Shown in pieces: positions 11,168 to 56,884 of a stretch of 64,000 bases of DNA. A model generated the notes under the pieces. The model did not search any database. It worked only from the letters and a program-made list of their open reading frames with translations, and was not told the origin of the DNA. A program made the position numbers and the translations under genes. The stretch's first letter is position 1. Each line of letters starts with the position of its first letter. The stretch is from Mesorhizobium sp. RMAD-H1 (GTDB lineage Bacteria; Pseudomonadota; Alphaproteobacteria; Rhizobiales; Rhizobiaceae), in the NCBI RefSeq assembly GCF_014191375.1, contig NZ_JACHWN010000002.1:310001-374000 (forward strand). The letters run 5' to 3'.

Positions 11168-11309
11168 GTGAGATAGTGAAGGCAATGACCTGCTACCTCA
11201 CTATTCCCTACTCACTATTCCCTACTCACTATTCCCTACTCACTATTCCCTACTCACTATTCCCTACTCACTATTCCCTACTCACTATTCCCTACTCACT
11301 ATCTCACTA
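11168..11309. repeat. 14-bp tandem repeat array
   Basis: Seven exact head-to-tail copies of the 14-mer CTCACTATTCCCTA occupy 11197-11294, followed by a diverged copy reaching 11309. An inverted relative (GTGAGATAGTGAA) lies at about 11168-11180. The array fills the galM-gabD gap, and the last copy contains the gabD stop codon (TAG read on the minus strand from 11309). Related, diverged sequence occurs at 17005-17082, 27965-28052 and 41147-41214. Confidence 0.95.
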
Positions 11310-12767
11310 CTGAATCCCCAGTCCGCCGATGCAGACATATTTGGTGTCGAGATAGTCCTCGATGCCCTGATGCCCGCCTTCCTTGCCCAGGCCCGATTCC
11401 TTCAGGCCGCCGAACGGCGCCTCGACGGTCGTGATGATGCCTTCGTTGACGCCGATGAGGCCGTATTTCAGCCCCTCCATCACGCGGAAGGTGCGGCCGA
11501 GATCCTGCGTGTAGAAATAGCAGGCGAGGCCATATTCGGTATTGTTGGCGAGATCGATGGCCTCCTGCTCCGTCCTAAACTTGTAGACCGGCGCGACGGG
11601 GCCGAAGATTTCCTCCCTGGTGAAGCGCATGCGCGGCTTGGCGTCGGCAATCACGGTCGGCTGGAAGTAAGTGCCGCCGAGTGCATGGCGCTTGCCGCCG
11701 GTCAGGATCTTGCCGCCCTTCTTCTCGGCGTCCGCGATCAGCTCCTCGACCTTCTGCACCGCCTTGTCGTCGATCAGCGGCCCCTGCTGGGTACCCTCCT
11801 CCAGCCCGTTGCCGACCTTCAGCTTCTCGGCCGCCGCGGCGAATTTCTCGACGAATTTGTTGTAGATCTTCGACTGCACGAAGAAGCGGTTGGTGCACAC
11901 GCATGTCTGGCCGGAATTGCGGAACTTCGCCGCGATCGCCCCTTCCACCGCGCGGTCGAGATCGGCATCGTCGAAGACGATGAACGGCGCGTTGCCGCCG
12001 AGCTCCATCGACACCTTCTTGACCGTGCTGGCCGCCTGCTTGATCAGGATCTTGCCGACCTCGGTCGAGCCGGTGAAGGTGATCTTGCGCACCAGCGGGT
12101 TGCGGGTCAGTTCGCCGCCGATCTCGGATGCAGAGCCGGTCAGGACGTTGACGACGCCCTTCGGAATGCCCGCTTCCTCACACAGGACGCCCCAGGCGAG
12201 GCCGGAATAGGGCGTCTGCGTCGCCGGCTTGACCACCGCCGTGCAGCCGGAAGCAAGCGCCGGCCCGATCTTGCGGGCGAGCATCGAGGACGGGAAGTTC
12301 CACGGCGTGATCGCCGCGATCACGCCCACCGGCTCCTTCGTCACCATGATGCGGCGGTCACGCCAGGGCGACGGCACCACGTCGCCATAGACCCGGCGCG
12401 CTTCCTCGGCATACCAGAGGATATAGGCGGCCGACATCCCGATCTCGCCCTTCGCCTCGGTCAGCGACTTGCCCTGCTCAAGCGTCAGCAATTCGGCCAG
12501 CGAATCCTGGTTCTCGAGGATGAGATCGTGCAGCTTGCGCATCAGCTTGGCGCGCTCATTGGCCGACGTCTTCTTCCAGCTTTCGAAGGCTTCCGCCGCC
12601 GCCTGAATGGCGCGCGCCGTCTCCGCCTTGCCTGAATTCGGCACGGTCCCGATCTTCAGGCCCGTCGCCGGGTTGACGACATCGATGGTCTGGCCGGAAT
12701 CGGCCTCCACCCAGTCGCCGGCGATCAGATTGGCCTGTTTCATGAAATAGCTGGTCTTCTGAAGCAT
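11307..12767 (-). CDS. gabD: NAD(P)-dependent succinate-semialdehyde dehydrogenase
   Basis: A 486-residue aldehyde dehydrogenase. Motifs are PVGVIAAITPWNFP, the cofactor loop GSTEVGKIL, the catalytic Glu in MELGGNAPFIVF and the catalytic Cys in NSGQTCVCTNRFFVQ. Together with the C-terminal GYxD-like tail these match GabD-type succinate-semialdehyde dehydrogenases of 4-aminobutyrate degradation. The ATG at 12767 follows AAGGAGAACAGCG, so longer upstream starts are rejected. No GABA transaminase is nearby. Confidence 0.88.
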   Translation of the reverse strand: MLQKTSYFMKQANLIAGDWVEADSGQTIDVVNPATGLKIGTVPNSGKAETARAIQAAAEAFESWKKTSANERAKLMRKLHDLILENQDSLAELLTLEQGKSLTEAKGEIGMSAAYILWYAEEARRVYGDVVPSPWRDRRIMVTKEPVGVIAAITPWNFPSSMLARKIGPALASGCTAVVKPATQTPYSGLAWGVLCEEAGIPKGVVNVLTGSASEIGGELTRNPLVRKITFTGSTEVGKILIKQAASTVKKVSMELGGNAPFIVFDDADLDRAVEGAIAAKFRNSGQTCVCTNRFFVQSKIYNKFVEKFAAAAEKLKVGNGLEEGTQQGPLIDDKAVQKVEELIADAEKKGGKILTGGKRHALGGTYFQPTVIADAKPRMRFTREEIFGPVAPVYKFRTEQEAIDLANNTEYGLACYFYTQDLGRTFRVMEGLKYGLIGVNEGIITTVEAPFGGLKESGLGKEGGHQGIEDYLDTKYVCIGGLGIQ

Positions 12768-18156: not shown

Positions 18157-18311
18157 CCCCCCTCTGCCCTGCCGGGCATCTCCCCCGCAAGGGGGGAGAT
18201 TGGCTGGCACTGCTGGCGGCGCCTACCCGGCGACGTCAGCGATTGGCGAAAGCGGATCTCATAGCTGATCTCCCCCCTTGCGGGGGAGATGTCCGGCAGG
18301 ACAGAGGGGGG
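18157..18311. repeat. Composite palindrome, family A, copy 1
   Basis: A 155-bp element between adh and lpxXL. It starts CCCCCCTCTGCCCTGCCGGG, has an inner hairpin with arms ATCTCCCCC/GGGGGGAGAT, a variable centre of about 60 bp, a second hairpin and the complementary end CCGGCAGGACAGAGGGGGG. Copies are at 23435, 29208, 36295 and 38912. Flanking GCGCTGTCCCGCC extends the terminal inverted repeat. Confidence 0.95.
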
Positions 18312-18358
18312 CGCTGTCCCGCCACCATCTCCATTTCAACGCGAAATCCCCTTCCCCC

Positions 18359-21468: not shown

Positions 21469-21490
21469 ACACCGTCATCGCGTATGAACG

Positions 21491-21644
21491 CCCCCCACCC
21501 TTACCCTCTCCCCGTAAAAACGGGGAGAGGGGAACCTTAATGTCGGCGCCTCTTTCTTCTCCCCCTGCACCCGGCAAGAAGAAAGTAACGGAAACATCCA
21601 TGTCCCCCTCGCCCCGCTTGCGGGGAGAGGGTAAGGGTGAGGGG
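21491..21644. repeat. Composite palindrome, family B, copy 1
   Basis: A 154-bp element: an outer inverted repeat (CACCCTTACCCTCTCCCCG and its complement), an inner CCCCG/CGGGG hairpin at each end and a central hairpin around CTGCACCCGGCAAG. It lies between the substrate-binding gene and the first permease of an ABC operon. Other copies are at 24914, 34467 and 37112. Confidence 0.93.
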
Positions 21645-21667
21645 CAAATTGCGGGAGGAGGCACCTC

Positions 21668-23434: not shown

Positions 23435-23589
23435 CCCCCCTCTGCCCTGCCGGGCATCTCCCCCTCAAGGGGGGAGATTGCCTGCATTAATGGCGGCCCT
23501 TTGTTCTGCAACGTTTGTGATTGGCGAAAGCGGAACTGACAGCCGATCTCCCCCCTTGAGGGGGAGATGTCCGGCAGGACAGAGGGGGG
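23435..23589. repeat. Composite palindrome, family A, copy 2
   Basis: A 155-bp copy between the convergent DppC-type permease and cobD. It has the same ends and paired hairpins as the copy at 18157. At this site it may stop transcription from both sides. Confidence 0.95.
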
Positions 23590-24634: not shown

Positions 24635-25786
24635 TCAGGCTCTTATATCTTTAAAAGCTTGCTCCAGACGGTCAAAATCCGCCTCATTAGCGGCAAGGCC
24701 GATGCGCAGCCACTCCCGTTCATAATCGAACTTGCGCACCAGTATGTGCCGCCGGCAAAGCTCCTCGTGAAGCACATGGGCTTGGCGGTGCCGAATGAGC
24801 GCAAACAGCGCCGTCCCGCCGATCTCTACCAGCCCCACGCGCTGGAAGACATCCGACAGCCGGGCGCGGCGGGCAAGGATGCGGCGGCGGAACGCATCGA
24901 GGATGGATCCCGGCCCCTCACCCTTACCCTCTCCCCGTTCTGACGGGGAGAGGGAGACATCGGCGTCGCCGCCTCCCTCCTCCTTCGCGCCTGGCGCAAA
25001 GGAAAAGGCGCCCACATCAAGGCCCCCCTCTCCCCGTGAAGAACGGGGAGAGGGTAAGGGTGAGGGGCAAAACGCATGAACGGCAATAGCCAGCGCCGGG
25101 CCGGAAACAGCCCACGGTCCGAGCCTTTCGGCCAATTTGCGCGCAATTTCCGCGCCGGAAATCGCAAAGCCCAGCCGCAAACCGGCAAGTCCGAAGAATT
25201 TTCCGAAGGATTTGAGGATGATCAGACTCTCGCTACCCGCCCCAGCCGCAATGCTCGTTTCCGGGTGGGCGTCGGCGAATGCCTCATCAACGATGAGGAG
25301 GCCACCACGCGCTTGCAGTTTCTGGGCCAGGCCCAAAAGCGCGTCGCCGGACACAACACGACCATCCGGATTGTTCGGATTGACCACCACCACGGCTTTC
25401 GCCGTCGCCGGAGCGGAGCCGATATCCGCGCAGGGCACGACCGCCCATCCTGCCCGCGCGAAGGCGGCGTGGTGCTCCTGATAGGTGGGAGAGAGAATAG
25501 CGACCTCGCCCGGCGCAACCAGTTCCGGCACGATCTGGATCAGCGCCTGGGTACCTGGAGCCGCCACGATGGCAGCCGTATCTGCCGCGCCATAATACCC
25601 CCGCGCCGCATCGAGCGCCTGGGTCAGCAGCGACTCGTCCGGAAGCCTGTTCCAGATTTCCGGCGCGATCTCCGGCAAGGGAAAGGCTTCCGGATTGATG
25701 CCGGTCGAAAGATCAAGCCAATCGGCCCGTGTCCCGCCGAAGCGCGCAATCGCCCGGTCGAGCGCGCCCCCATGCTCGATCGTCAT
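24635..25786 (-). CDS. cobC: Threonine-phosphate decarboxylase with an in-frame palindromic insert
   Basis: A 383-residue PLP-dependent aminotransferase-fold protein (family about 330). It starts MTIEHGGALDRAIARFGG, with DLSTGINPEAFP, VVVNPNNPDGRV and the PLP lysine region ILKSFGKFFGLAGLRLGF. It makes the aminopropanol phosphate used by CobD. Residues about 240-291 are encoded by a family B palindrome (PSPLPSPRSSRGEGG to GERGEGKGEG) inserted without a frameshift; removing it gives about 331 residues. The start overlaps the cobB stop by four bases. The decarboxylase is probably still active, but this is untested. Confidence 0.9.
   Translation of the reverse strand: MTIEHGGALDRAIARFGGTRADWLDLSTGINPEAFPLPEIAPEIWNRLPDESLLTQALDAARGYYGAADTAAIVAAPGTQALIQIVPELVAPGEVAILSPTYQEHHAAFARAGWAVVPCADIGSAPATAKAVVVVNPNNPDGRVVSGDALLGLAQKLQARGGLLIVDEAFADAHPETSIAAGAGSESLIILKSFGKFFGLAGLRLGFAISGAEIARKLAERLGPWAVSGPALAIAVHAFCPSPLPSPRSSRGEGGLDVGAFSFAPGAKEEGGGDADVSLSPSERGEGKGEGPGSILDAFRRRILARRARLSDVFQRVGLVEIGGTALFALIRHRQAHVLHEELCRRHILVRKFDYEREWLRIGLAANEADFDRLEQAFKDIRA
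24914..25067. repeat. Composite palindrome, family B, copy 2, inside cobC
   Basis: A 154-bp copy with the outer CCCCTCACCCTTACCCTCTC inverted repeat and inner hairpins. It lies wholly within the cobC coding sequence and keeps the frame open on the coding strand. Confidence 0.95.
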
Positions 25787-27964: not shown

Positions 27965-28052
27965 AGTGAGATAATGAGGTAGTGAACAGTGAGATAGTGC
28001 CTTTTCCCTATTCACTATCTCACTATTCCCTACTCACTCTTCCCTATTCGCT
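27965..28052. repeat. Inverted repeat of GTGAGATAGTG type between cobA and cbiD
   Basis: The left part (TGAACAGTGAGATAGTG) and right part (CACTATCTCACTATTCCC and later TACTCACTCTTCCC) are complementary around CCTTTTCCCTATT. It shares words with the arrays at 11168 and 17005. It occupies the divergent promoter region of the two operons. Confidence 0.8.
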
Positions 28053-28065
28053 CTATAAGACGCCC

Positions 28066-29175
28066 ATGAGCGACGAACCAGATGCCGGGACAAGAAAAAC
28101 GCAGCCCCAGAAGGCGCTGCGGCGTGGCTGGACGACCGGCGCCTGCGCCACCGCGGCGACCAAGGCGGCCTTGACCGCGCTCATCACCGGCGAGTTTCCC
28201 GATCCTGTCGGCATCATCCTGCCCAAGGGCGAGGTGCCCTTCTTCCCGCTGGCGATCGAAAGCATCGGCGAAGGCTATGCAATGGCCGGCATCGTCAAGG
28301 ACGCGGGCGACGACCCTGACGTCACCCACGGCGCGACCATAATCTCCACCGTCTTCCCCGCCCCGCCCGGAAGCGGCATCGTCTTTGCCGCAGGCGAAGG
28401 GGTGGGCACCGTCACCCGCCCCGGCCTGCCGATCCCGCCCGGCGAAGCGGCGATCAACCCCGTGCCGCGCGCCATGATGCGCGCCGTCTGCGAGGAGATC
28501 TGTGCCGAATACGGCCTGCCCGCCGATCTCGTCGTCACCATTTCCGTTCCCGACGGCGAGGAAATCGCGAAGAAGACCTGGAACCCGCGTCTGGGGATCA
28601 TCGGCGGCATCTCCATTCTCGGCACCACCGGAATCGTCCACCCCTTCTCCTGCTCGGCATGGATCCACTCGATCCATCGCGGCATCGATGTCGCCCGCGC
28701 AGCCGGCCTCACCCATGTGCTGGGAGCGACGGGCTCCACCTCCGAGGACGCCGCCCGGAAGATCTATGATCTCCCCGAAATCGCGCTGCTCGACATGGGC
28801 GACTTCGCCGGCGGCCTGCTCAAATATCTGCGCGCCCACCCGATCGACAGGCTCACCATCGCCGGCGGCTTCGCCAAGCTGACCAAGCTCGCGCAAGGCG
28901 CCCTCGACCTGCACTCCTCGCGCAGCCAGGTGGACATGGGCTTTCTCTGGACGCAAGCGGAAAAGATCGGCGTGCCCGTGGACATGAAAGAGCGGATTCT
29001 CTCTGCCAACAGTGCACTGGAAGTGCTTGAGATGACTCGTGAAATGAGCTTCGACCTCGCCCGCCCGATCGCCGAACACGCCCACGCCACCGCGCTGGAT
29101 GTCCTGCGGGGTGCGCCGGTGGAGGTCGAGATCATCGTCACCGACCGCAAGGGGAATGTGCTTGCGCGGGTGTAG
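28066..29175 (+). CDS. cbiD: Cobalt-precorrin-5B C1-methyltransferase
   Basis: A 369-residue CbiD-family protein. The N-terminal RRGWTTGACATAATKAAL and the central GIIGGISILGTTGIVHPFSC are diagnostic. CbiD methylates C1 during ring contraction and deacylation in the oxygen-independent route. Here it sits among oxygen-dependent pathway genes (cobK, cobM, cobN), where it may stand in for CobF. The ATG at 28066 is chosen because further upstream the frame runs through repeat DNA. Confidence 0.92.
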   Translation: MSDEPDAGTRKTQPQKALRRGWTTGACATAATKAALTALITGEFPDPVGIILPKGEVPFFPLAIESIGEGYAMAGIVKDAGDDPDVTHGATIISTVFPAPPGSGIVFAAGEGVGTVTRPGLPIPPGEAAINPVPRAMMRAVCEEICAEYGLPADLVVTISVPDGEEIAKKTWNPRLGIIGGISILGTTGIVHPFSCSAWIHSIHRGIDVARAAGLTHVLGATGSTSEDAARKIYDLPEIALLDMGDFAGGLLKYLRAHPIDRLTIAGGFAKLTKLAQGALDLHSSRSQVDMGFLWTQAEKIGVPVDMKERILSANSALEVLEMTREMSFDLARPIAEHAHATALDVLRGAPVEVEIIVTDRKGNVLARV

Positions 29176-29207: not shown

Positions 29208-29364
29208 CCCCCCTCTGGCCTGCCGGCCATCTCCCCCGCAAGGGGGGAGATTGGCTAGCATCTCCGTCGGCTCCTATTCTAAAACGTTCGCAATTGGCGC
29301 GAAGCATCGATGAAGGCGTAATCTCCCCCCTTGCGGGGGAGATGTCCGGCAGGACAGAGGGGGG
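29208..29364. repeat. Composite palindrome, family A, copy 3
   Basis: A 157-bp copy between cbiD and cobK. Its left end reads CTGGCCTGCCGGCC where other copies read CTGCCCTGCCGGGC, changes that keep the small inner palindrome. The rest matches the family. Confidence 0.94.
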
Positions 29365-29394
29365 CGCTGTCCCGCCAGCGTTTTTTAATTAGAC

Positions 29395-32272: not shown

Positions 32273-32911
32273 CTAGAACTCGATCCCCTTCTGCGCCTTC
32301 ACGCCCGAGCGGAAGGGATGCTTGATCATCTCCATCTCGGTCACGAGATCGGCGAATTCGATCAGTTCGTCCTTGGCATTGCGCCCGGTGATGATCACAT
32401 GCTTCATGAAGGGCTTCTCCTTCAGCACCTCGATCACTTCCTCCACCGGCAGGTAATCATATCGTAGTACGATATTCAGCTCGTCGCAGAGCACCATGTC
32501 GTGCTCCTCGTCGAGAATCATTTTCTTCGCCTGCTCCCACGCATCGCGCGCCATGGCGATGTCGCGGGCGCGGTCCTGCGTTTCCCAGGTGAAGCCTTCG
32601 CCCATGGCGGAAATCGTCACCAGTTCGGGGAATTTCTCCAGCACCGAGCGCTCGCCCGTCTCCCACGAACCCTTGACGAACTGCACCACGCCGATCTTCA
32701 TGCCATGGCCGAGCGCGCGGAACACCATTCCGAAACCGGCGGTCGATTTTCCCTTGCCCTTGCCGGTATGGACGATCGTGAGGCCCTTCTCATCCGTCTT
32801 GGTGGCGAGGATCTTGTCCCGCGCGGCCTTCTTCTTCTTCATCTTATCAGCATGGCGAAGGTTCAGTTCCTCTTCGCTCAATCCCAGCAGTTTTTCTGAT
32901 TTTTCAGCCAT
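32273..32911 (-). CDS. cobO: Cob(I)yrinic acid a,c-diamide adenosyltransferase
   Basis: A 212-residue CobA/CobO-type adenosyltransferase. The P-loop HTGKGKGKSTAGFGMVFRA, VVQFVKGSWETGE and DMVLCDELNIVLRYDYLP are diagnostic. It adds the upper adenosyl ligand to the reduced cobalt corrinoid. It overlaps cobN by 8 bases and abuts the EamA gene. Confidence 0.95.
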   Translation of the reverse strand: MAEKSEKLLGLSEEELNLRHADKMKKKKAARDKILATKTDEKGLTIVHTGKGKGKSTAGFGMVFRALGHGMKIGVVQFVKGSWETGERSVLEKFPELVTISAMGEGFTWETQDRARDIAMARDAWEQAKKMILDEEHDMVLCDELNIVLRYDYLPVEEVIEVLKEKPFMKHVIITGRNAKDELIEFADLVTEMEMIKHPFRSGVKAQKGIEF

Positions 32912-35900
32912 TTGGCATCGCTCCCTGACTCATTTTATTAGAATTCGCTATTTCACTTAAATCGAAACGAGCGGAGTTCGAGCGCGGAACCCACAGTCCA
33001 CGGTCGATAGCTTGCAACAGCTTTTCCGCCATCTCGGCCAGCGCCGCCGGGTTCTTTTCCTCAAGGAATTCGCGCACGTCGTTGTCGGCCAGCAAGGACT
33101 GGTAGACCGCCTCGAAATGATGATTCTTGACCGCCCCGGTCGTCGCGGCGAACGCATAGAGGTAATCCACCGTCGCGGCCATCTCGAACGCCCCCTTGTA
33201 GCTGTGCCGCATCACCCCGGCGATCCACTTCGGATTGACGACGCGCGCCCGCACCACCCGGCCTACCTCCTCCTCCAGCGTGCGGACCACCGGGCGTTCG
33301 GGGCGCGAATGGTCGTTGTGGTAGATCGCCGGACGCCTGGCGGTAAGATGCTCGACGGCGACGGCCATGCCGCCCTCGAACTGATAATAATCGTCGGAAT
33401 CGAGAAGGTCGTGCTCGCGATTGTCCTGGTTCTGCACCACCGCCTCGACCGATTTCATCCGCTCCTCAAGCAGCCCGCGCTCGGCCTTGCCCTCCTCGCC
33501 CGCGCCATAGGCATAGCCGCCCCAGACGAGCCATGCCTCGGCGAGATCGCTCCGCTCCCGCCAGCCATTCTCGTCCATCAGCGCCTGCAACCCCGCGCCA
33601 TAAGCGCCGGGCTTGGCGCCGAACACGCGATACCCCGCCTTGCGCCGCGCCGCCTTCTCATCCTCGCCATCGGCCCGGAGCCGCGCCTCTTCGCGCCGCA
33701 TCCGCGCAGCGATGGGATTGTCCCCTTCATCCTCGTCGAGCGCGCCCACCGCCCGCACGGCTCGGTCGAACAGCGCGATCTGGTCAGGGAAGGCATCCCG
33801 GAAGAAGCCGGATATGCGTAAGGTCACATCCACGCGCGGACGCCCCAGCATCGCCGGCGGCACGATCTCATAGCCGGTGACGCGGCGCGAGGCCATGTCC
33901 CACACCGGCTTGACGCCGATCAGCGCCAGCGCCTGCGCGATATCGTCGCCGCCCGTGCGCATGTTGGAAGTGCCCCAGGCGGTGAGCCCGAACGAGGTCG
34001 GCCATTCGCCATGATCCTGCGTGTAGCGCGTGACCAGCAGTTCCGCCGATTTCTTTCCAAGTTCCCAAGCCGCCGGTGTCGGCACGGCGCGGCTGTCGAT
34101 GGAAAAGAAATTGCGCCCCGTCGGCAGCACGTCCGGCCGCCCCCGCGTCGGCGCGCCTGACGGGCCGGGCGCGACGAAACGGCCGTCGAGTGCGGCGAGG
34201 AATGCCTCCATCTCCGCCTTGCCACAGGCTTCCACCGCGGGCCGCAGATGGGAGGTGATACCATCCAGCACCGCGCGGGTCGCCATCCAGTTTTCGGGAC
34301 AGGCCACTTCGCCCGCCACCAGCTTGGCGGCCAGAAGTTCGATCCGCTCCACCGTATCGCCGGTGATGCGCCATGGGTCGGATGAGACGGCTTGCAGGAT
34401 TTCTGGTCTTGATCCGGTCCATGGAGCGGCCATGTTGCAATCCAGGGGGTCGAATGTCGTGGAATGCCCCTCACCCTTACCCTCTCCCCGCGCGCGGGGA
34501 GAGGGAGGCACGGGCGTTGCAGCCGCTTCCTTTTCCCCCTGCACCTGGCGGAAATGTGGGGCGGAAACGTTCACGTCCCCCTCTCCCCGTAAATCACGGG
34601 GAGAGGGTAAGGGTGAGGGGCTATCCCCAACGTTCACAGCGATCCCCGCATCCCGCGCAATCGCCCGCTGCAGACTCATATCCGCATCATCACCTGACCC
34701 ACGCGGCACCCGCGCCAGCGCCACGAGCAGGTCCGTCAGCAGCCGCCCTTCCGGGGACTGCCCGAACACATGCAGCCCGTCGCGGATCTGCATTTCCTTC
34801 AGATCGCATAAATAGGCGTCGAGCTTTTGCAGCGCCAAATCCTCGCCGTCGTGATCATGAATCCCCGCATCATGGTCCAGACCGATATCGCGCACCAGAT
34901 CGAGGATTTGCCCTTTGAGCCGCCTGAGCCGCCGCGGATCGACGCCCGATGCCTCGTAATATTCATCCACCAGCGCTTCGAGGTCCTTGAGCGGCCCGTA
35001 GCTCTCCGCTCTTGTCAGCGGCGGGGTCAGATGGTCGATGATGACGGCAGCGGAGCGGCGCTTGGCCTGCGTGCCCTCGCCCGGATCGTTGACGATGAAG
35101 GGATAGACATGCGGCACCGCGCCCAGCAACGCCTCCGGGTAGCAGGTCTCGGACAGCGCCAGCGCCTTGCCGGGCAGCCATTCGAGATTGCCATGCTTGC
35201 CCATATGCACGATGGCATCCGCGCCATATGTCTCGCGCAAACAGGCGTAGAAGGCGAGATAGCCATGCGGCGGCACGAGGTCGGGGGAGTGATAGCTGTC
35301 CTTGTGATCGATGTTATAGCCGCGCGCGGGCTGGATGCCGACCAGCGTCTCGCCGAACCGCGCCAGCGGCAGGGCGAAGCCGTCAATACGCTCAAGGAAG
35401 AACGGATCGGCCTCAGGCTGCCCCCACCGCGCGGTCACTTCATCCTGAATCTTTAGAGGAAGCTTTCCAAAGAAGTGCTTATATTGATTCAGGGAAAGCG
35501 TTTCGCGGATTTCGCGGCCATCCGTCGCCGCATTGGTCGGCCCGGCCATAAGATGGTTGATCAGCGCATCACCGCTACCAGGCAGATCGGCGACCGGATA
35601 CCCCGCCCCCTGCATCGCCCGAAGCGCCTCCAGCGTCCCCGCCGGGGTGTCGAGCCCAACGCCATTGCCAAGCCGCCCGTCGCGGTTCGGGTAATTGGCC
35701 ATGACGATGGCGACCCGCCGTTCCCGCGCCGCCTTGCGCCTGAGCCGCGCCCAGCGCGCCGCCAATTCTGCGACGAATTCCACCCGGTCCGCACGCGGCT
35801 CATGGGTGACGATATTGGCCTCGACCGCCTCGTCATAATGCCGCGCCGACTTGAACGAAACGGCGCGCGACAGCACACGGCCATCCACCTCCGGCAGCGC

Positions 35901-37052
35901 CACATTCATGGCAAGATCACGGGCGGAGAGCCCCTGCGGCGAGGCTTCCCACGCTTCTGCCACCGAACCGGAGAAGATCGTCTGCAACACGACAGCGCCG
36001 CGCTTTTCCAGCACCGTCGGCTCGCGGTCCATGCCGGGCGCGGAAACGGCAAAGCCGGTGGCGTTCAGCACCACATCGGGCGGCATCTCCGCAAACACCG
36101 CATCCAGCGTCGCCACCGACACCGGGTCCTTGAGGCTGGAGACGAACACGGGCAGCGGGTTCAGCCCCTTCGCCGCCAGTGCTTCGACGAGTGCTTCGAC
36201 GCCTTTCGTTTGGCCGCTCTGGACGAGGGCGCGGTAGAAGCAGATGGCGATGGTGGGACGTTCTTTTTGGCTAGCATTCTGGCGGCCGCGCTCACCCCCC
36301 TCTGCCCTGCCGGGCATCTCCCCCTCAAGGGGGGAGATTACGCTGTCATCAATACCGCTGCCAATCGCAAGCGTAGCCGGATGAGCACTGTCGCCCACGT
36401 CAGCCAATCTCCCCCCTTGCGGGGGAGATGTCCGGCAGGACAGAGGGGGGCCCTGTCCCGCAGACCTCTCCGCGTGAAACCCACTCACCTCCTCCACCGA
36501 AACCACGCCCCGCCCCGGCCACCATATCCCGGCCTTGAGCAACGGCGCAGCCTCCGCCGGCTTCTCGCCGGCACCCAACAGCGCCGCGCAATAATCCAGA
36601 AATCTCCGCGCGTTCTGCGCCCCGCCCTCGATCAGATAATGCCAGAGCGCATCGCGATCATCAGGCGCAACGGTCGAAAACCGATGCAGCCCCGCATCCG
36701 GCTTGTCATCGCCCGGCAGCACGGCAAGCTTGATCCCATGCGTCACCGCACAGGCATGCAGCGCCTCCAGCCCATAGGGCCAATAGCTCTCCCCGCCGAT
36801 GACCCGCACGACGATCACCTGAGCGTACCGCGCGGTACGCTCGATATAGGTATCCACCGACATCGGATGCGAAAGCGCCATGATGCTGGCAAGCCGGAGC
36901 GTCAGCCCGCCCGCCGCCGCGTGAGCCGCAGCCAGGCTCGCCAATTCCGTATCCGCCGCTGAAAGGAACAGGATATCGCCCGGCGACTGGCCAAGATCAA
37001 TAGCCTCGCCGCCTTCGGCGATGGTTCCTTTCTGGGCTAGAAGAAGATGCAT
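32904..37052 (-). CDS. cobN: Cobaltochelatase subunit CobN with two in-frame palindromic inserts
   Basis: A 1382-residue protein; CobN is normally about 1275. It is the large, tetrapyrrole-binding subunit of the ATP-dependent cobaltochelatase, working with CobS and CobT chelatase subunits not seen here. HMGKHGNLEWLPGKALALS and FGLTAWGTSNMRTGGDDIAQ are family motifs. Residues about 201-253 are encoded by a family A palindrome (ISPLEGEMPGRAEGG) and residues about 811-862 by a family B palindrome (PSPLPSPRDLRGEG). Subtracting both leaves about 1278, the normal length. Both inserts keep the frame, so the protein is probably made as one chain with two added loops. Confidence 0.95.
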   Translation of the reverse strand: MHLLLAQKGTIAEGGEAIDLGQSPGDILFLSAADTELASLAAAHAAAGGLTLRLASIMALSHPMSVDTYIERTARYAQVIVVRVIGGESYWPYGLEALHACAVTHGIKLAVLPGDDKPDAGLHRFSTVAPDDRDALWHYLIEGGAQNARRFLDYCAALLGAGEKPAEAAPLLKAGIWWPGRGVVSVEEVSGFHAERSAGQGPPLSCRTSPPQGGRLADVGDSAHPATLAIGSGIDDSVISPLEGEMPGRAEGGERGRQNASQKERPTIAICFYRALVQSGQTKGVEALVEALAAKGLNPLPVFVSSLKDPVSVATLDAVFAEMPPDVVLNATGFAVSAPGMDREPTVLEKRGAVVLQTIFSGSVAEAWEASPQGLSARDLAMNVALPEVDGRVLSRAVSFKSARHYDEAVEANIVTHEPRADRVEFVAELAARWARLRRKAARERRVAIVMANYPNRDGRLGNGVGLDTPAGTLEALRAMQGAGYPVADLPGSGDALINHLMAGPTNAATDGREIRETLSLNQYKHFFGKLPLKIQDEVTARWGQPEADPFFLERIDGFALPLARFGETLVGIQPARGYNIDHKDSYHSPDLVPPHGYLAFYACLRETYGADAIVHMGKHGNLEWLPGKALALSETCYPEALLGAVPHVYPFIVNDPGEGTQAKRRSAAVIIDHLTPPLTRAESYGPLKDLEALVDEYYEASGVDPRRLRRLKGQILDLVRDIGLDHDAGIHDHDGEDLALQKLDAYLCDLKEMQIRDGLHVFGQSPEGRLLTDLLVALARVPRGSGDDADMSLQRAIARDAGIAVNVGDSPSPLPSPRDLRGEGDVNVSAPHFRQVQGEKEAAATPVPPSPRARGEGKGEGHSTTFDPLDCNMAAPWTGSRPEILQAVSSDPWRITGDTVERIELLAAKLVAGEVACPENWMATRAVLDGITSHLRPAVEACGKAEMEAFLAALDGRFVAPGPSGAPTRGRPDVLPTGRNFFSIDSRAVPTPAAWELGKKSAELLVTRYTQDHGEWPTSFGLTAWGTSNMRTGGDDIAQALALIGVKPVWDMASRRVTGYEIVPPAMLGRPRVDVTLRISGFFRDAFPDQIALFDRAVRAVGALDEDEGDNPIAARMRREEARLRADGEDEKAARRKAGYRVFGAKPGAYGAGLQALMDENGWRERSDLAEAWLVWGGYAYGAGEEGKAERGLLEERMKSVEAVVQNQDNREHDLLDSDDYYQFEGGMAVAVEHLTARRPAIYHNDHSRPERPVVRTLEEEVGRVVRARVVNPKWIAGVMRHSYKGAFEMAATVDYLYAFAATTGAVKNHHFEAVYQSLLADNDVREFLEEKNPAALAEMAEKLLQAIDRGLWVPRSNSARFDLSEIANSNKMSQGAMPNG
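34467..34620. repeat. Composite palindrome, family B, copy 3, inside cobN
   Basis: A 154-bp copy in the second half of cobN, with the outer CCCTCACCCTTACCCTCTCC repeat and its complement. It is translated in frame as a Pro/Ser/Gly/Glu/Arg-rich segment. Confidence 0.95.
36295..36450. repeat. Composite palindrome, family A, copy 4, inside cobN
   Basis: A 156-bp (52-codon) copy near the start of cobN. Its length is a multiple of three and the coding frame stays open through both hairpins and the unique centre. Confidence 0.95.
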
Positions 37053-37111
37053 GCGTACTTTCCTATAGAAGCGCTGGCCGAACAGCGGCCACTCTTTTCC
37101 TGCGTGGACAG

Positions 37112-37265
37112 CCCCTCACCCTTACCCTCTCCCCGCACGCGGGGAGAGGGGGACATAGGCGTTCTCGCTTCACCTTTCTGCCAGGTGCAGGGGGTGCAGA
37201 AAGAGGCGGCGGCGTTGGCGCCCCCCTCTCCCCGTAATTCACGGGGAGAGGGTAAGGGTGAGGGG
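37112..37265. repeat. Composite palindrome, family B, copy 4
   Basis: A 154-bp copy filling most of the 242-bp gap between cobW and cobN, within the riboswitch-led operon. Confidence 0.95.
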
Positions 37266-37294
37266 CAATCCCGGCGGAACGAAACGCCAAGCGC

Positions 37295-38344
37295 TCACAC
37301 CGCTGCCCGCACCGCCCGCTCAATCGCCGCCGCATCAATATCATGCAGCCCGATCACCACCAGCCGCGAGGCGCGTTCTTCATCCGCACCCCATGCCCGG
37401 TCGAAATAATGCTCGATGCGCATCCCCACCGCCTGCACCACCAGGCGCATCGGCTTGCCGGGCACATCGACGAAGCCCTTCAGACGCAAAATGTCATGCG
37501 CCGCAATCACATCCTTCAGCTTCTCGATAAACGCCTTCGGCTCCGCCACCGGCCCAAGCCCCACGACGAAGCTCTCGAACTCGTCATGATCGTGCTCCTC
37601 GCCCGCCTCATGCTCCATCTCATGGTGCGACTTGCGGTTGGCGATGTCAGCTTCCGTGCCCACACCGAGGCCCAGCAGCACATCTGCGCCGAGCTTGCCG
37701 AAGCTGGCGGGCACCATGTTCGGCACGCGGGCGGCGCGGGCGGCGACGTCCTCGCGCACCTTCTCAAGCTGCACCAGATCGATCAGGTCCGCCTTGTTGA
37801 GCACGATCAGATCGGCAGCGCGGATCTGGTCCTCATAGAGTTCCTCCAGCGGGCTCTCATGGTCAAGCGCGTCGTCCCCGGCGCGCTGCGCATCCACCTT
37901 GTCATGATCGTCGGCGAAGCGGCCCTCCGAGACGGCAGCGGCGTCGATGACGGTGATGACGCCATCGACCGTCACCTGCGTCTTGATCTCCGGCCAGTTG
38001 AAAGCGGCGACGAGCGGCTGCGGCAGGGCGAGGCCCGATGTTTCGATGACGATATGATCCGGCCGGTCCGCCCGGTCGAGCAGCTTGGTCATGGTCGGGA
38101 TGAAATCATCCGCCACCGTGCAGCAGATGCAGCCATTGTTGAGCTCGATCACATCCTCCTCGCGGCAAGTCTCGATGCCGCAGCCCTTGAGGATGCCGCC
38201 GTCGACGCCCAGATCGCCGAACTCGTTGATGATCAGCGCGATGCGCTTGCCATTGGCGTTCTCGAGCAGATTGCGGATCATCGTCGTCTTGCCCGAGCCC
38301 AGAAAGCCGGTGATGACGGTTGCCGGTATCTTTTGTCCCTGCAT
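37295..38344 (-). CDS. cobW: Cobalamin biosynthesis protein CobW (COG0523 GTPase)
   Basis: A 349-residue metal-handling GTPase. The P-loop ITGFLGSGKTTMIRN and the metal-binding NGCICCTVADDF define the family, and NKADLI gives guanine specificity. A His/Glu-rich stretch (HHEMEHEAGEEHDHDE near residue 240) is probably a metal buffer. It is thought to deliver cobalt to the chelatase, consistent with its place before cobN. Confidence 0.94.
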   Translation of the reverse strand: MQGQKIPATVITGFLGSGKTTMIRNLLENANGKRIALIINEFGDLGVDGGILKGCGIETCREEDVIELNNGCICCTVADDFIPTMTKLLDRADRPDHIVIETSGLALPQPLVAAFNWPEIKTQVTVDGVITVIDAAAVSEGRFADDHDKVDAQRAGDDALDHESPLEELYEDQIRAADLIVLNKADLIDLVQLEKVREDVAARAARVPNMVPASFGKLGADVLLGLGVGTEADIANRKSHHEMEHEAGEEHDHDEFESFVVGLGPVAEPKAFIEKLKDVIAAHDILRLKGFVDVPGKPMRLVVQAVGMRIEHYFDRAWGADEERASRLVVIGLHDIDAAAIERAVRAAV

Positions 38345-38349
38345 GGGAA

Positions 38350-38865
38350 TTACCCTTTCAGTTTCAGCGGCAATCCCGCCGCTATGAAATAAACTTCGGT
38401 GGCGGCGGCTGCGACCGCCTGATTGACCCGTCCCGCATGGTCGCGGAACGCCCGCGCCATCGCGTTGTCAGGCACGATGCCGAGGCCCACCTCGTTGGAG
38501 ACGAACAGCACCGTACCCGGGAGTTCGGCCATAGCCGCGACAAGCCGACCGGTTTCGCCGGCAATGTCGCGCCCCGCCATCATCAGATTGGTGACCCAGA
38601 GGGTCAGGCAATCCACCAGCACCGCCCGCCCCTCGCCCGCATGAACTTGCAGCGAACCGACCAGATCTAGCGGTTCCTCGACCGTGGTCCAGACCAAACC
38701 ACGCCGTTCCTTGTGCAGCGCGATCCGCTCCCGCATCTCATCGTCATAGGCCTGCCCCGTCGCGATATAGACCGCTTCGAGGCTGGATTGTTCGACCATG
38801 CTTTCAGCGAAAGTGGATTTGCCCGAGCGCGCCCCGCCGAGGACGAAAATGGTTGTTCCGGGCAT
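38350..38865 (-). CDS. cobU: Adenosylcobinamide kinase / adenosylcobinamide-phosphate guanylyltransferase
   Basis: A 171-residue bifunctional enzyme (also called CobP). [15 protein letters not shown] is the P-loop, [13 protein letters not shown] and [12 protein letters not shown] are typical. It phosphorylates adenosylcobinamide and attaches GMP before the CobS step. It lies five bases upstream of cobW. Confidence 0.94.
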
Positions 38866-38911
38866 CTGTCAGAGCCCTTCATTTTCAGCTGGAAACGCTG
38901 GCGGGACAGTA

Positions 38912-39067
38912 CCCCCCTCTGCCCTGCCGGGCATCTCCCCCTCAAAGGGGGAGATTGGCTGTGATATACGCTTTCGCCAATCGCTGACGTTGCAAGATAA
39001 AGCGCCGCCATCGATGAAGGCCAATCTCCCCCCTTGAGGGGGAGATGTCCGGCAGGACAGAGGGGGG
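38912..39067. repeat. Composite palindrome, family A, copy 5
   Basis: A 156-bp copy between cbtA and cobU. The flank CGCTGGCGGGACAGT, the reverse complement of the right flank in other copies, shows that the terminal inverted repeat extends beyond the C-run. Confidence 0.95.
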
Positions 39068-39093: not shown

Positions 39094-39795
39094 CTAGCCT
39101 TCCAGCTCCGAGGCAGCATAACGCTGCAACAGCCAGCCGAGCGCCAGCCCCAGCACCGTCCACATGAAGAGGTTGGTCGCCAGCGACGCCACCGCATATT
39201 GCGAGGCGATGAGCGCCGGGACCGGCGAGGCGATATCCTCCGGATGCGGCGCGCCATAGAGATGCGGCAGCACGATCAGGAAGAGGCCAAGCACCCTCGC
39301 CCAGATCTCATGCCGCAGCACGATGAGATAGAGCCCGATGGCGGAAAGGAGCACCGTCACGACCCACCACAGTTGCCGCTCGCTCAAATCGGCGGCGGGC
39401 ATGGCCGGCAGTTCGGGCGCAAAGCCGAGCGAAGGCGCGAAGGCGAAAACGAAGAAGCCCGCCAGCCCCCAATAGATGCCGTTGCGCGGCGTGATGCGCT
39501 GTCCCAGAAGCAGCGCCACGCCGCCGAGCGCCAGCGCAAAGCCCGCGCCCGCCACGAGATTGGCGAGAATGGTGTTGCCAAGCCGCCCGAACGGCAGCTC
39601 CGCCCCGCCCTCCTCCGCCGCATCGGAATGGTCATGCGGCGCGGCCTCCGGCCCATGATGGTGACCGCCAGAGGCGTCCTCATAGGTCTCCGCCTGAAGG
39701 ATCAGCGGAACCGCTTTCAGATACATTGCGGGCGTGACGAGAATACCTGCAAAGAGGCCGGCTACGACCGTAGCCAGCAGATAACGAACCAGCAT
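39094..39795 (-). CDS. cbtA: Cobalt transporter subunit CbtA
   Basis: A 233-residue membrane protein with about six hydrophobic segments and a periplasmic His-rich loop (GGHHHGPEAAPHDHSDAA near residue 45). CbtA with CbtB is a proposed B12-regulated cobalt importer. It follows cbtB by 21 bases beneath the cobalamin riboswitch and is separated from cobU by a family A palindrome. Confidence 0.88.
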   Translation of the reverse strand: MLVRYLLATVVAGLFAGILVTPAMYLKAVPLILQAETYEDASGGHHHGPEAAPHDHSDAAEEGGAELPFGRLGNTILANLVAGAGFALALGGVALLLGQRITPRNGIYWGLAGFFVFAFAPSLGFAPELPAMPAADLSERQLWWVVTVLLSAIGLYLIVLRHEIWARVLGLFLIVLPHLYGAPHPEDIASPVPALIASQYAVASLATNLFMWTVLGLALGWLLQRYAASELEG

Positions 39796-39999: not shown

Positions 40000-40066
40000 G
40001 ACAACCTCCGTGCAGGCAGCAGGGGAAAACGCCCCTCAGGTAGCGGGCACCATTGCCCTTCTGCGC

Positions 40067-40270
40067 CCGGCAGGTCTCCTGGCTCGCGGGTCAGAAGATC
40101 GGCGCCGCCTTCCCGGTTTCCCAGTGGCTGGCCGGGGGTATCCCGGCGCGTGGCATCGATCCTATCCGCTCTACAGTCGCGGGGTCGGCTGCGATAAGGA
40201 CGCCCGGCATGGGTCCGTCCGTCGCATTCCCTTTTGATCCCAAGGCTTCCGCCTTCGGGAACCGAACGCA
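40067..40270 (-). ncRNA. Cobalamin riboswitch upstream of cbtB
   Basis: On the minus strand the conserved parts appear in order: GGTTCCCGAAGGCGG with AAAGGGAATGCG, a diverged B12 box (CAGCCGACCCCGCGACTG, at about 40173-40193) and the 3' end AGGAGACCTGCC (40069-40080). High adenosylcobalamin should turn off the cbtB-cbtA-cobU-cobW-cobN-cobO operon. The B12 box departs from consensus, but all other parts are clear. Confidence 0.88.
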
Positions 40271-40278
40271 ATGGCGTC

Positions 40279-40307
40279 ACAGTATGATTTATGACGAATG
40301 GCGTCAA
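40279..40307 (-). promoter_or_regulatory. Candidate promoter for the riboswitch-cbtB operon
   Basis: On the minus strand TTGACG (40307-40302) and TACTGT (40284-40279) are separated by 17 bases, placing transcription start just before the riboswitch. Confidence 0.5.
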
Positions 40308-56473: not shown

Positions 56474-56502
56474 TTGACAATATCTGCGCGCGCTCACTAG
56501 GT
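56474..56502 (+). promoter_or_regulatory. Promoter of the riboswitch-btuB transcript
   Basis: TTGACA (56474-56479), a 17-base spacer and CTAGGT (56497-56502), directly ahead of the riboswitch. The -35 is perfect and the -10 is of the kind common in alphaproteobacteria. Confidence 0.6.
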
Positions 56503-56690
56503 TCCGGCATGGAATCGGTTCCGCCCAAGGCGGATGAAAAGGGAACACGGTGCGGTCGGACCATCGACCAAAGCCGGGACTGCCCCCGCAACTGTAACCG
56601 TTGAGCCTTCATTCAGAGTGCCACTGGGCGCGAAAGCGTTCGGGAAGGCGAAGGAAGGCGATGACACGGGAGTCAGGAGACCTGCCTTTT
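56501..56690 (+). ncRNA. Cobalamin riboswitch upstream of the TonB-dependent receptor
   Basis: Conserved elements in order: AATCGGTTCCGCC, AAAGGGAACACGGTG, the B12 box GCCGGGACTGCCCCCGCAAC (56573-56594 region), GTGCCACTGGG with GGGAAGGCG, and the 3' GAGTCAGGAGACCTGCC ending near 56686. It should reduce receptor expression when adenosylcobalamin is plentiful. About 195 bp of leader follow before the ATG at 56885. Confidence 0.95.
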
Positions 56691-56884
56691 CCGGTCACCC
56701 ATGCTTGGCCACGGGGTGTGGCTGGGCGCGGTCGTCCGTGGCGGTGACACGAGATAGGTGTTGCCGCGTGCCGGAATGGCCGAGGGGGTGCAATCTGCTG
56801 ACCAGCGCCCAGCTCCATATCCGCCTGCGGTTTGTCATGAACTTCGGGGCGAGGGTTTTTCGCCTCCGATGCACTGGGGCGGAT

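Follow-up and report, generated by a model that had tools for sequence, protein, structure and literature searches.

The gene under study lies on the minus strand at 32904-37052 of a 64,000-nucleotide stretch of the genome of Mesorhizobium sp. RMAD-H1 (contig NZ_JACHWN010000002.1, positions 310,001 to 374,000), hereafter the window, and encodes the cobaltochelatase subunit CobN with two palindromic inserts, A and B, in its reading frame. The open reading frame (ORF) of 1382 codons matched TIGR02257 with a score of 1723 bits against a cut-off of 822. Insert A is a composite palindrome of 156 bp at 36295-36450 (minus strand, the orientation taken from the spacer motif), which by arithmetic corresponds to residues 201-253. 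It consists of inverted arms CCCCCCTCTGnCCTGCCGGnCATCTCCCCC with a spacer between them, and the inverted repeat recorded there (I24) has arms at 36295-36339 and 36406-36450 that are 93% complementary. Insert B, at 34466-34621 and residues 811-862, is a composite palindrome with inverted arms GCCCCTCACCCTTACCCTCTCCCC. We named the arm families of this analysis F1 to F5, where F1 (insert A) and F2 (insert B) are families A and B of a first-pass annotation of the window. That annotation had given the length of the CobN frame and the size and residues of insert A as we found them. It had also placed insert B at the right residues, and the length of 154 bp that it gave for this insert measured 156 bp. 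Its description of the inserts as unrelated, stop-free and in frame agrees with our results: both lengths are multiples of three, the CobN frame has no stop through either, and F1 and F2, alike in architecture, belong to different repeat families with no arm sequence in common by eye.

Both inserts are predicted to form very stable RNA hairpins, with folding energies of -128.3 kcal/mol for insert A (z -9.43) and -123.5 kcal/mol for insert B (z -9.70), and in neither case did any of 200 dinucleotide shuffles fold as well. In an alignment with the solved CobN 9uk9 (1263 aa), residues 1-195, 264-805, and 866-1369 of the window CobN paired with residues 1-196, 198-744, and 746-1249, leaving one unaligned residue of 9uk9 at each insert point and 68 (A) and 60 (B) of the window CobN. 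Relatives with both sites empty have open frames of mostly 1233-1288 aa (a few are longer by N-terminal run-on, and that of G105 has 1120 aa). Removal of the 104 insert residues from 1382 leaves 1278, so that the protein does return to a normal length, as had been proposed. The window CobN has 93 aa between the anchors of site A, of which 53 are element, and the site thus holds further extra flanking residues. The loops of empty CobNs vary in length, being mostly 15-32 aa at site A and 4-13 aa at site B. The same genome carries a second CobN-like ORF (L291:1630-5538, contig C3) of 1302 aa, which scores above the NF004644 cut-off, contains no F1-F4 arm, adjoins a TonB-receptor-like gene, and is 35% identical to the window CobN over the matched stretch. 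Because of this second gene, the window cobN may not be essential.

The arms of both inserts are multi-copy repeats. Genome-wide probes were run for F1-F4. With up to two mismatches allowed, they located F1 arms at 81 + 82 places and F2 arms at 45 + 27 places in the window's own genome (G000, 5.1 Mb), with no hit of the reversed-pattern control for either family. From fetched stretches covering a part of this genome, 108 elements were delimited with the mismatch rule: 57 F1 doublets, 2 F1 single arms, 19 F2 doublets, and 30 F2 single arms. Of these elements, 21 lie in an open frame that extends at least 60 aa on both sides, and 87 have no such frame. Among 12 picked genomes probed for F1, the seven with a filled CobN have 13 to 332 arms, and four of the five with an empty CobN (G018, G021, G029, and G091) have none; filled sites thus tend to go with the presence of the family in the genome. 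The F3 and F4 families are multi-copy in some of their carriers, with 22 and 11 places in G131, eight of F3 in G016, and four and three of F4 in G082 and G089, respectively. The patterns used found no F3 copy in G115 and no F4 copy in G066, both of which are carriers, and the reversed control is uninformative for F3, the pattern of which reads identically backwards.

To describe the occupancy of the two sites we used an insert-blind draw, in which CobN minus both inserts served as the query against 121 genomes of the family. Sixty-two genomes matched at E values up to 1e-180, and the 59 genomes with no match at this threshold stand outside all draw counts. All 62 drawn CobNs have a single open frame through both sites. 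When alignment columns filled in under 40% of rows were treated as rare and runs of such columns were scored from 18 residues up, every internal run in the 62 proteins started at about residues 185-209 or 805-819 in the window CobN numbering, and the only other runs were N-terminal extensions of the open frame. According to arm-sequence rules, site A contained a recognised element in 16 CobNs, a long unclassified sequence in one, and was empty in 45; site B contained a recognised element in 17, a long unclassified sequence in one, and was empty in 44. Twenty CobNs have an element at either site and 13 at both, and 42 of the 62 have none recognised. The two segments are absent from most CobNs of the draw as well as from 9uk9.

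A larger set of 139 CobNs combined the 62 drawn proteins with 77 from insert-biased sets, G046 (L117) and repeated sequences having been dropped beforehand. In this set, arm positives numbered 70 at site A and 73 at site B within 41,772 bases, compared with two (G115 and L094) in the 506,892 bases of the remaining gene. Long unclassified rows (3 at A and 9 at B among the 139) were not scored as elements and were excluded from the counts of change given below. Each of F1, F2, F3, F4, and F5 was seen at site A and each at site B, some once only and some alongside another family. The rule for F2 takes in a variant arm, which is the form present at site A of G089. A search with a query that carried the inserts gave, among the best 80 of 270 matches, CobNs of Brucella endophytica, Phyllobacterium phragmitis, P. 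leguminum, P. salinisoli, Paramesorhizobium deserti, Rhizobium, and Sinorhizobium; these 80 named loci do not enter the frequencies.

On core trees (FastTree and IQ-TREE quick), at least nine changes between filled and empty are needed per site, and for changes of family the corresponding numbers are 12 at site A and 10 at site B. Variation is found within one genus as well. In the window's genome and its same-genus relatives G001-G005, site B contains F2 in G000 and G003 and F1 in G001 and G004, and what it has in G002 and G005 are shorter remnants. Site A contains F1 in both G000 and G003 with the spacers in opposite directions (G003 by eye). That different families occupy the same sites argues for permissiveness, although a sequence preference of the target may also play a part.

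The inserts were also compared with the rest of the protein in a predicted structure and in substitution rates. In an AlphaFold model of CobN residues 1-1190 (41 sequences), the mean predicted local distance difference test score (pLDDT) was 72.5 and 13 segments were under 50; the two longest of these, both coil, are the inserts (205-262 and 807-864). The first lies between a helix (186-197) and a strand (267-273), and the second follows a helix (794-801). The top fold match of the model was the CobN 7c6o (TM 0.53). The ratio of nonsynonymous to synonymous substitution (dN/dS) between G000 and G003 was 0.08 for the core (1224 codons) and 0.59 for site B (65 codons), and among ten Rhizobium carrying F3 at this site the core had a median of 0.11 and the insert one of 0.76 (45 non-independent pairs). 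By these values the core is under purifying selection and the inserts are nearly neutral. In other copies in the genome, about 30% of frames are open (for F1, 95 of 318 frames in 53 doublets; for F2, 30 of 90 frames in 15 doublets), whereas an open frame continues across both sites in each of the 20 drawn CobNs that carry an element; this difference points to translation and purifying selection.

CobN is not the only protein with such elements. Eleven of the 21 open-frame elements lie in proteins with a family match: CobN (two), CobC, CobG, PbpC, NadB, D-apionate lactonase, CydD, an assimilatory-nitrate-reductase-like protein, an ATP-grasp protein, and a hydantoinase/caprolactamase-like protein. 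The ATP-grasp protein is the weakest of these, with its family match on one side of the element only, and in CobG, CydD, and the hydantoinase-like protein a single arm alone was recognised. Ten frames scanned against Pfam covered the remaining 10 elements, and among them L270 alone had a match, to Tex_N in the part downstream of its element; the scan did not extend to three more antisense frames of the elements listed. Genes for vitamin B12 make up four of the 11 cases, a number too small to test. In the window, cobC (threonine-phosphate decarboxylase, 383 aa; 24635-25786, minus strand, TIGR01140) contains an F2 element in frame at 24913-25068. The corresponding site contains F2 in G000 and G001, is empty in G002, G003, and G004, and has a different short palindrome in G005 (F5-like by eye). 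In cobG of the same genome (contig C1, about 1134437), an F2 arm is in frame at L079:1501-1524 and L294:1938-1957. NadB contains F1 in G000, G001, and G003 and lacks it in G004, G005, and the five more distant relatives aligned. In NadB of G002 (L318), F1 is cut down to its outer arms, still in frame, and resembles a hairpin collapse; judging by the few remnants found, an insert may be lost by one route in which its arms collapse onto each other with the frame kept. The case is wider than the first-pass annotation had described: other genera have other families at the same two CobN sites, and cobC, cobG, nadB, pbpC, and further genes carry copies in frame.

Taken together, we consider it very probable, on the sequence evidence, that the two segments belong to two distinct families of small non-autonomous mobile palindromes, of which copies inserted in cobN and are translated as disordered loops in permissive linkers that have been recolonised repeatedly. 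A trans-acting mover would spread the palindromes across the genome, and copies in genes would be purged unless they were in frame, stop-free, and within a flexible permissive linker. CobN would offer two positions of this kind, following residues ~194 and ~805, and among the Rhizobiaceae these sites would many times have gained an element, exchanged it for one of another family, and lost it. Inserts that survive would drift, flip, be replaced, or collapse in frame. The peptides would accordingly be made and tolerated, the sites would be picked by selection and not by target preference, and the remnants would have arisen by deletion between arms.

Several observations weigh against this explanation. 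No mover is apparent: the window's genome has no match to PF01797 (Y1 transposase), which was found in 9 of the 41 genomes searched, and no F1-F4 arm lies in the 6.0 and 6.5 kb stretches examined around the Y1 genes of the same-genus G003 and G004 (F5 was not looked for). On these grounds RAYT/IS200 was rejected as the mover. Target duplication, examined at terminal dinucleotides only, showed no excess, with 23 of 57 complementary compared with 20.6 after shuffling, and the outer flanks are often another repeat module. One picked genome, G008, has 30 F1 arms and yet both of its CobN sites are empty. The AlphaFold model covers a truncated protein, and 11 other, shorter segments are also under a pLDDT of 50. 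In addition, the change counts on unrooted trees do not separate gain from loss, and shuffled labels require a mean of 14-15 changes compared with nine, so that filled and empty states cluster on the tree and the pattern is therefore partly inheritance.

This clustering is also what would be expected of a single old insertion at each site, followed by gene conversion between copies, inversion, and decay, which we regard as possible and rather unlikely. The opposite spacer directions of F1 at site A of G000 and G003 would then be inversions, and the shorter remnants seen at the two CobN sites and in the G002 NadB would be products of decay. However, F1-F5 have different arms and are hardly derivable from one insertion by conversion, and F2 and F1 alternate at site B within a single genus, where unrooted trees still allow many losses.

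Alternatively, the inserts may have been recruited, either as an mRNA hairpin between ordered parts that pauses ribosomes or tunes expression or as a peptide that is a useful linker, with insertion being favoured. The position of both inserts between ordered segments of the AlphaFold model, the hairpins of -123 to -128 kcal/mol, and the presence of several families at the same two places would fit this idea, as would the phase of the F1 right arms, which in CobN are in one phase in 81 of 84 cases (18 of 20 in the draw), compared with 62 of the 95 open frames of non-coding copies. Of the F1 left arms in the 139 CobNs, 61 of 69 fall in phase 0 and eight in phase 2, where the non-coding copies favour phase 1 (53 of 95). 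These counts carry no significance test, come from related rows, and have a null from one genome. Kinship, as well as stops in the other phases, confounds the phase bias, and shared ancestry is the only explanation that we can offer for the left-arm excess in phase 0. Against recruitment, 42 of the 62 CobNs have no recognised element, dN/dS of the inserts is near neutral, and the convergence on two places is explained by permissive linkers, so that we judge it improbable. A stronger form, which we hold to be quite improbable, is that the CobN linkers are favoured landing pads: hairpins there would slow the ribosome or tune cobN dosage, and palindromes of the genome would be captured repeatedly in the phase that gives a benign hydrophilic peptide, thereby acting as exchangeable folding or dosage modules.

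It is very improbable that the segments are missing from the final protein, whether by removal from the mRNA, by ribosome hopping, or through a silent gene with the second CobN-like gene doing the work. The extreme hairpins and the second CobN-like ORF would be in line with such loss, but an open frame would then not be needed, while every element-bearing CobN of the draw is open where only about 30% of frames elsewhere are; the core dN/dS of 0.08 in the one pair tested and the 35% identity of the second gene, with its TonB-receptor-like neighbour, argue in the same direction. That the segments are native CobN loops with palindromy by chance, for which one could cite the variable loop lengths of empty CobNs, can be practically dismissed, given the same arms at dozens of other places in the genome and none of 200 shuffles folding as well. 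Readings as a chance palindrome, a native domain, or a pseudogene were thus rejected or made unlikely by the multi-copy arms, the shuffles, the open frames, and the core dN/dS.

Translated palindromes are best known from Rickettsia. The first-pass annotation had likened the CobN inserts to Rickettsia palindromic elements (RPE) that are tolerated as extra loops, and had named conserved native domains, removal of the segments from mRNA or protein, or a silent gene as findings that would speak against this; on the sequence evidence none of these was seen. The absence of the segments from 9uk9 and most drawn CobNs, their multi-copy arms, the low-confidence coil in which both are placed in the AlphaFold model, the open frame, and the near-neutral inserts support this likeness, and we therefore describe the elements as putatively RPE-like. 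In the cited part of a review, RPE are palindromic repeats of 105-146 bp, located between genes and in frame in conserved genes, and the RPE-carrying enzyme Gmk is reported as translated and active (PMC2229807). The present elements likewise combine a palindromic repeat with a long stem-loop, being slightly longer at 156 bp (z about -9.5), and are found in intergenic positions as well as within the frames of conserved proteins (11 of 108). Unlike RPE, they have hosts in the Rhizobiaceae, are GC-rich with two head-to-head arms and a spacer, and are likened by description and not by sequence; moreover, several repeat families here share the same insertion sites in a single enzyme throughout one bacterial family.

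Other repeat classes offer partial parallels. The repetitive extragenic palindromes (REPs) and REPINs of the GTAG and CGTC superfamilies are described, in the cited portion of the source, as inverted doublets of short palindromes that are mostly intergenic with some in ORFs, and recB of X. campestris and X. oryzae carries different REPs at about the same site (PMC3733652). The doublets found here (57 F1 and 19 F2) resemble them in having two palindromes in inverted orientation. The GTAG and CGTC tags are absent from F1 and F2 arms by eye, CTAC and CGTC occur in the outer flanking module of some F1 copies, and, unlike REPINs, the present families have no Y1 transposase (RAYT) match in the window's genome; the re-use of sites in CobN is also wider than in the recB pair as presented there. 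RIME, palindromic repeats abundant between genes of rhizobia (PMC2573895), share with F1-F5 the rhizobial host, a likeness by description only, and are presented as intergenic in the passages cited. Bacterial miniature inverted-repeat transposable elements (MITEs) such as the enterobacterial ERIC/RU elements and NEMIS are small non-autonomous repeats with open frames that, according to the cited excerpts, can be fused in frame to proteins (PMC2229807, PMC2759123). F1 and F2 have terminal inverted repeats like these, and differ from them in that no target duplication or transposase link was found.

Among the matches listed in the open-licence literature, nothing was found on palindromes in rhizobial CobN or on in-frame palindromes in Rhizobiaceae, and within the literature searched the wide use of two places in one enzyme by multiple families appears to be new. 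CobN provides many natural replicates, in which the same two places are filled by different families, empty in relatives, or partly decayed, in soil bacteria of which many are culturable. It could thus serve as a natural test of how proteins tolerate mobile DNA, what it costs them, what becomes of it, and whether it may be recruited. The review on these repeats leaves undecided, in the relevant section, if an insert of this kind is ever of use to its protein (PMC2229807). In practical terms, where a rhizobial protein has a motif such as SPLxGEMxGRxEGG or SPRxRGEGKGEG, that stretch may be mobile DNA.

Further copies of both families are scattered over the window. F1 copies at 18157-18311, 23435-23589, and 29208-29364 have no open frame of 60 aa on both sides, and another at 38912-39067 lies between the adenosylcobinamide kinase gene (38350-38865) and the next minus-strand ORF (39094-39795). 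An F2 copy is located in the gap between cobN and cobW (37295-38344) at 37111-37266, and a second one at 21490-21645 has an open frame through it with no Pfam family matched. A second repeat module often adjoins copies of F1. It reads GCTGGCGGGACAG, or the complement of this, as at 18312-18326, 29365-29379, 36451-36465, and 38897-38911; elsewhere the flanking module is GGCGCTCTACG, and it looks as if F1 is nested in another palindrome. At the gathering threshold, Rfam gave no family at the elements, and its sole matches in the window were two cobalamin riboswitches (RF00174) at 40052-40281 on the minus strand and 56499-56703 on the plus strand. In addition, tandem 14-bp repeats (CTCACTATTCCCTA) were found at 11183-11316 and 28005-28068.

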